Positions 32,201 through 32,900 of a stretch of DNA of 53,581 nucleotides are shown piece by piece (the stretch's first letter is position 1; each line of letters opens with the position of its first letter). The notes under the pieces were generated by a model. The model saw nothing but the letters and a program-made list of their open reading frames with translations, searched no databases and was not told the origin of the DNA. The stretch spans positions 1-53,581 of the forward strand of contig NZ_LR027863.1 in assembly GCF_900607235.1 (NCBI RefSeq). Direction: 5' to 3'. The DNA comes from Olivibacter jilunii (GTDB lineage Bacteria > Bacteroidota > Bacteroidia > Sphingobacteriales > Sphingobacteriaceae). Both the position numbers and the translations under genes were made by a program.

Positions 32201-32324
32201 TAAATTGATTTCTGACAAGGGGCTTTTACATTCCGATGTGTTTTTTTAAATTTCAATTCGATATATTCGAAATAGATTTTTTTTTGTGTTAGGTTTGCAA
32301 GACTTAAGAGAATGATAAATACAC

Positions 32325-32900
32325 GTGAACAGGATTTTTTTCAAGCAGAAGACGGCATACGAGATAATAATTAGCAAGTGTAGAGATCTGTTTGTGAAAA
32401 AAGCGGCGGACTATGGGACGGCTTGGCGCATTATGCGGCTGCCCTCTGTTACCGATCAGATTTTCATTAAGGCCCAACGGATCCGGACAATTGAAGAAAA
32501 CAAATTCGCCAAAATTCCCGATGATATTCCGTCTGAGTACATTGGTATTATCAATTACTGTATAATTGCCATGATTCAACTCGAGCTGCCGGCCGATACA
32601 GAGGAGAATTTGCCTATTGAAAAAGTGAAAGAATTGTATGACCGATATATTAACGAAACAAAAGAGCTAATGCTTTCAAAAAATCACGATTATGGTGAGG
32701 CTTGGAGAGACCTCCGTATCGGCTCACTCACTGACTTGATTTTGATGAAAATATTCAGGGTAAAACAAATTGAGGATAACAGCGGATTAACTCTTGCCTC
32801 TGAGGGCGTAAAAGCTAATTATCAGGATATGCTTAACTACTCCGTTTTCGCACTTATAAAATTAAGGCACCTGGAGGAAGAACAAGTTCCAAACATATAA
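32325..32900 (+). CDS. DUF1599 protein, 5' end broken by an adapter insert
   Basis: As read, a frame from 32325 gives MNRIFFKQKTAYEI before the genuine DUF1599 sequence (IISKCRDLFVKKAADYGTAWR). That N-terminus is encoded by sequencing-adapter DNA. The natural start is the ATG at 32312; removing bases 32333-32357 gives MINTREQYEIIISKCRDLF, the expected family start, in one frame. The protein consists of two similar halves of about 75 residues, each with a KxxDYGxAWRxxR and a LTDxI motif. The function is unknown. It belongs to the conserved run folP - DUF1599 - DoxX seen in Bacteroidota. Confidence 0.85.
   Translation: MNRIFFKQKTAYEIIISKCRDLFVKKAADYGTAWRIMRLPSVTDQIFIKAQRIRTIEENKFAKIPDDIPSEYIGIINYCIIAMIQLELPADTEENLPIEKVKELYDRYINETKELMLSKNHDYGEAWRDLRIGSLTDLILMKIFRVKQIEDNSGLTLASEGVKANYQDMLNYSVFALIKLRHLEEEQVPNI
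32333..32365 (+). other. Illumina P7 flow-cell oligonucleotide sequence (artefact)
   Basis: Bases 32342-32365 match all 24 bases of the Illumina P7 oligonucleotide (starting CAAGCAGAAG, ending TACGAGAT), preceded by a run of seven T, as in the flow-cell-bound form. The last eight bases (32358-32365) also fit the gene, so the extra DNA is 32333-32357, 25 bases, which shifts the frame. This is a technical, not a biological, feature. Confidence 0.95.

Follow-up and report, generated by a model that had tools for sequence, protein, structure and literature searches.

The start recorded for the DUF1599 gene in our window, a 53,581-nt stretch of contig NZ_LR027863.1 of Olivibacter jilunii (GCF_900607235.1), is false, because the assembly has taken up an Illumina P7 oligonucleotide, along with a portion of its T linker, at the beginning of the gene. 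This is a laboratory artefact and not biology, and we put at roughly 95% the probability that it arose through sequencing and assembly, with a P7-ended oligonucleotide annealing, being extended, and being misassembled into the gene.

P7 sequence at the start of a DUF1599 gene

Positions 32342-32365 of the forward strand are identical to the P7 oligonucleotide at all 24 of its bases, and directly 5' of them stand seven T (32335-32341), as the initial annotation had described, and a GA dinucleotide (32333-32334). On the 3' side, DUF1599 gene sequence follows immediately, with no index and no read-2 adapter between. Within the 6.70-Mb, 21-contig genome this is the single copy of P7 at up to three mismatches; at that tolerance the window itself holds no second site, and none of 100 dinucleotide shuffles of the window produced a match. 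A named 24-mer would be expected by chance about 4.8e-8 times in a genome of this size, counting both strands and assuming equal base frequencies. P7 was present in one of 395 genomes sampled from the class and in one of 400 from the order, the sole carrier in each case being the genome of the window. The synthetic origin first attributed to the sequence is thus borne out by its exact identity and its single copy within three mismatches. Searches of the genome for the P5 24-mer (three mismatches allowed), the TruSeq 20-mer (two), and the Nextera 19-mer (one) returned no match.

Judged by the sequence and by the T-run lengths of sampled P7 copies, the seven T represent a partial flow-cell linker, short of the full ten. 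The GA at 32333-32334 lies outside the flow-cell oligonucleotide, is not called for by the spacing seen in relatives, and is left unassigned between gene and T-run. A natural GATTTTTTTTT tract occurs at 32275-32285, upstream of the gene and some 60 bases ahead of the T-run, and GATTTTTTT is common to this tract and to the left edge of the insert; we found no means of demonstrating that the GATTTTTTT at 32275 was the source of the GA.

As assembled, the gene is an open frame on the forward strand (32325-32900, 191 aa) that opens with GTG at 32325, reads MNRIFFKQKTAYEIIISKC, and stops at 32900, with a false N-terminus, MNRIFFKQKTAYEI, ahead of the DUF1599 domain. The frame matches PF07659 (E-value 2e-58; 195 bits, where 25 is the cut-off), with the best Pfam stretch beginning at residue 26, past the residues that P7 encodes, and it has no match among the NCBIfam models. 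Read from the ATG at 32312, the assembled sequence gives MINTREQDFFQAEDGIRDNN* and ends after 20 codons, which, taken with the strength of the domain match, upholds the earlier description of a disrupted DUF1599 gene. With 32333-32357 removed, the same ATG reads MINTREQYEIIISKCRDLFVKKAADYG and the gene becomes MINTREQYEIIISKC, in agreement with relatives; the proposal that dropping exactly these 25 bases restores the frame therefore survived recomputation. Based on the start of a same-genus relative (L004) and on a conserved threonine spacing, we take the true start to be ATG ATA AAT ACA CGT GAA CAG (MINTREQ) at 32312-32332 of the forward strand. The neighboring genes encode dihydropteroate synthase (on the reverse strand), a BT_3928-family protein, and a shikimate-kinase-like protein whose score against its best model falls short of the curated cut-off.

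A homologue search found DUF1599 in 38 of 41 genomes, the genome of the window included, and 29 relatives were fetched, 26 of which could be parsed by motif, with L023, L028, and L030 left unparsed. The column aligned with TAC at 32358 holds Tyr or Phe in all 26 parsed relatives, a Thr stands four residues ahead of it in all 26, and Asp or Glu follows it in 20 of 26. The assembled N-terminus, being P7-encoded, does not match the relatives and agrees with them only when the 25 bases are omitted, at which point MINTREQ-Y places Thr at -4, so that the comparison of gene starts proposed in the initial annotation fits a 25-base excess. The same-genus relative begins MINTAEEYD and is identical to the start in the window at 16 of 21 bases. 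We also considered a 22-base excess that keeps the GA in the gene (REQ-D-Y) and rejected it, because Arg would then occupy the position of the Thr shared by 26 of 26 relatives. The net excess of 25 bases (32333-32357, forward strand) is given here in one placement, its right border being ambiguous within P7.

This ambiguity bears on the earlier suggestion that the last eight bases of P7, TACGAGAT, coincide with the gene. TACGA lies under the 3' end of P7 in 13 of 26 relatives, and it is plausible from these alignments that TACGAGAT belongs to the gene; however, the Ile encoded by the codon built with the last two bases of P7 occurs in 0 of 26 relatives, so the gene may instead have been overwritten at these bases, and the borders of the 25-base excess are uncertain by a few bases. 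The closest relative, L003, carries ACGGCATACGA, 11 bases of P7, at its DUF1599 site, where a comparison with the last 12 bases of P7 found 2 of 7076 positions of the locus equally good.

P7 copies with and without an index

Two collection scans gave 246 P7 copies in 240 stretches among the matches listed. An index and a TruSeq or Nextera adapter follow P7 in 236 of these 246 listed copies, including three (L047, L197, L248) placed by eye on the strength of an index with a damaged adapter, while nine are index-less and one is too short for classing. The first automatic classing of the listed matches had given 235 copies with adapter, 10 index-less, and one too short; a stricter recount gave 233 with adapter, one loose, 11 without a match at the fixed offset, and one too short. 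The listed copies lie mostly close to contig ends, and among the 116 whose contig begins in the T-run or P7, a run of exactly ten T is the commonest (35 of 116). The T linker of the flow cell is itself ten T long.

The P7 of the window belongs to the index-less kind, which is rare among the sampled copies: behind it we looked for an index plus a TruSeq or Nextera adapter and found neither. The 24-mer and the T-run are common to the window and to untrimmed Illumina adapter in assemblies, where P7 is followed by an index and a TruSeq or Nextera adapter, whereas in the window the gene follows directly and true sequence stands on both sides. Adapter artefacts in reads are discussed in general in the accessible part of PMC3163567. 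In the viral_contigs collection, a stricter pattern retrieved 12 contigs, two of them already sampled and one (L296) a repeat of the Proteus phage Saba sequence considered below; 12 of the 13 P7 copies among the matches listed in that collection looked index-less by eye.

Native alleles at other index-less sites

Nine of 5426 E. coli genomes searched matched P7, and all nine were examined: two are clearly index-less (L272, L279), six have an index and adapter, and the ninth (L280) matches weakly and is probably native sequence. Of the 64 phage records matched, we examined nine of the 40 listed, three being index-less and six having an index and adapter. Five index-less sites outside the window (L272, L279, L282, L288, L289) could be set against an uninterrupted relative. 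At four of the five, the native site is the single best match of its locus to the last eight bases of P7: the E. coli prophage tail sheath gene (6/8), Vibrio phage D173 compared with 219E44-1 (7/8), Klebsiella phage Marfa compared with two relatives (8/8), and Proteus phage Saba compared with a 63% relative (7/8), each ranking first among the 1654 to 2454 positions of its own locus. By analogy, this favors the claim, made at the outset, that the oligonucleotide annealed by its 3' end. Over longer ungapped stretches the Vibrio site keeps first rank and the Marfa site is first, or third equal over 24 bases against one relative. The sheath and Saba sites are not the best of their loci at these lengths, which counts against mispriming: equally good positions number 29 of 1646 (last 12 bases), 10 of 1638 (last 16), and 220 of 1622 (last 24) for the sheath, and 8 of 2344 (last 16) and 22 of 2328 (last 24) for Saba.

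These four sites (that of the sheath lying in CP157243) resemble the window in that a T-run and P7 are joined to native sequence with both flanks kept, and in each the relatives resemble the 3' end of P7 at that point. They differ from it in that the T-run and P7 replace native bases in register, leaving the length unchanged, whereas the window carries a net 25 bases extra. The fifth site, kdpA of E. coli LR882052 (L279), is like the window in being a net insertion (+13 bases relative to K-12) that shifts the reading frame and has a short run of T (T6), but its P7 is truncated, ending at CGAG, and its native site is unremarkable, matching 2 of the last 8 bases of P7, with 1516 of 2416 positions equally good. 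This site, with no 3' match and a truncated P7, likewise counts against mispriming at P7-like sites.

How such sequences sit in current records varies. In the complete RefSeq E. coli genome NZ_CP157243.1, T10 and P7 (L272, 601-634) lie in an open frame within an annotated phage tail sheath protein, and in NZ_LR882052.1 the kdpA gene containing T6 and the truncated P7 is annotated as frameshifted. In Marfa (L288, identical to L200), the T-run and P7 occupy the position at which a portal protein gene is annotated in two intact relatives, whereas the Marfa stretch has no such gene annotated. The Vibrio phage record L282 and ten sister records (H57-H66) carry the T-run and P7 at the same position in an annotated hypothetical protein, and these eleven are counted once because they come from one record series; 219E44-1 (L292), the one related record of equal length that was compared, lacks them. 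Searches among phages for native alleles of L157, L165, and L225 listed six matches each, all to the P7 stretch only, with no record covering 80% of the query among the matches listed.

Origin and implications

We propose that, during Illumina cluster generation, the 3' end of a P7-ended oligonucleotide, most likely one grafted to the flow cell, hybridized to a stretch resembling P7 where the DUF1599 gene begins. Extension of the oligonucleotide would yield strands ending in P7 and the T linker with no index or read-2 adapter, and reads running leftward off the gene would end in the complement of P7 and an A-run, would escape adapter trimming, and could then be linked to the true left flank during assembly, leaving 25 foreign bases that shift the frame and create a false start. 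Annealing and extension are most likely by analogy, because four of five comparable native sites best match the 3' end of P7, and such an event would explain why there is a T-run but no index, and why P7 lies at this site and in this orientation. The left junction of the window probably arose differently from those at the four length-preserving sites, given its net gain of 25 bases, and we ascribe it to the assembler; at the other sites, rejoining in register could reflect a mixed cluster, in which native sequence is read again after the short strand has run out, or a pileup consensus with the same effect. The GA at 32333-32334 is not accounted for by annealing and extension.

The flow cell as the place of priming is something we infer, and the same mispriming during library PCR with a bare P7 primer is an unlikely though credible alternative, as it would give an identical junction without an index. 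The seven T do not decide the matter. The T linker appears on every strand that is sequenced through to its point of surface attachment, so the run alone is no proof of priming by a grafted oligonucleotide. What speaks against the PCR variant is that molecules misprimed there, having no index and no read-2 site, should drop out at demultiplexing, whereas strands misprimed on the flow cell can occur in the same cluster as an indexed parent. Among sources of P7, ordinary read-through of a short insert into untrimmed adapter outnumbers all others by a wide margin, with 236 of 246 listed copies, but unless a protocol attached P7 straight to inserts it is very improbable here, because the gene adjoins P7 with neither index nor read-2 adapter between them, and because P5, TruSeq, and Nextera sequences are absent from the genome at the tolerances given above.

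An overwrite in register, in which native bases were replaced one for one and a real start lies beneath, the ATG at 32312 not being the start, has the four length-preserving sites as its precedent, and the start codon of L003 would indeed lie beneath the T-run and P7. We consider it improbable, since the MINTREQ start at 32312 matches the MINTAEE start of the same-genus relative and the threonine spacing conserved in 26 of 26 relatives comes out right only with an excess of 25 bases. A genuine insertion in the genome, whether natural or engineered, would leave the gene expressible in principle, because the frame opened by GTG 32325 continues into the domain; however, it would require the genome to have acquired a synthetic oligonucleotide with part of its surface linker, one that the other genomes sampled from the class and order all lack and that cuts off the start placed at 32312 after 20 codons, and we regard it as barely conceivable.

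Assembly errors are known to produce spurious pseudogenes (PMC11017572), and the window is similar in that a technical error mimics a frameshifted gene, while the accessible part of that source deals with frameshifts and internal stops in general rather than with the P7 oligonucleotide. PMC3163567 and PMC11017572, in the parts available, treat adapter artefacts and assembly-made pseudogenes, respectively, in general terms. Among the papers listed, we found none on this exact artefact, which may still have been published, and no relevant one on P7-encoded peptides.

For this organism, the consequence is that one DUF1599 protein is recorded with a wrong start and roughly a dozen spurious residues. 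More broadly, P7 fused to genomic sequence lacks the index-side adapter that is the usual mark of such contamination, and replacement at constant length can hide in annotated proteins, as in the tail sheath protein of E. coli that overlaps L272, because native bases are sometimes replaced without a frameshift. Assemblies and protein sets could be screened cheaply for the P7 24-mer or for its three forward translations, FFKQKTAYEI, FFQAEDGIRD, and FFSSRRRHTR. We tentatively suggest, at somewhat less than even odds, that P7-ended oligonucleotides prime natural P7-like sites often enough to cause, in some assemblies, predictable, sequence-directed errors that escape index-based screening, mostly in-register overwrites of about 34 bases that leave the length unchanged and more rarely insertions as in the window. 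If this is true, such errors would be predictable beforehand from the P7-like sites of a genome.
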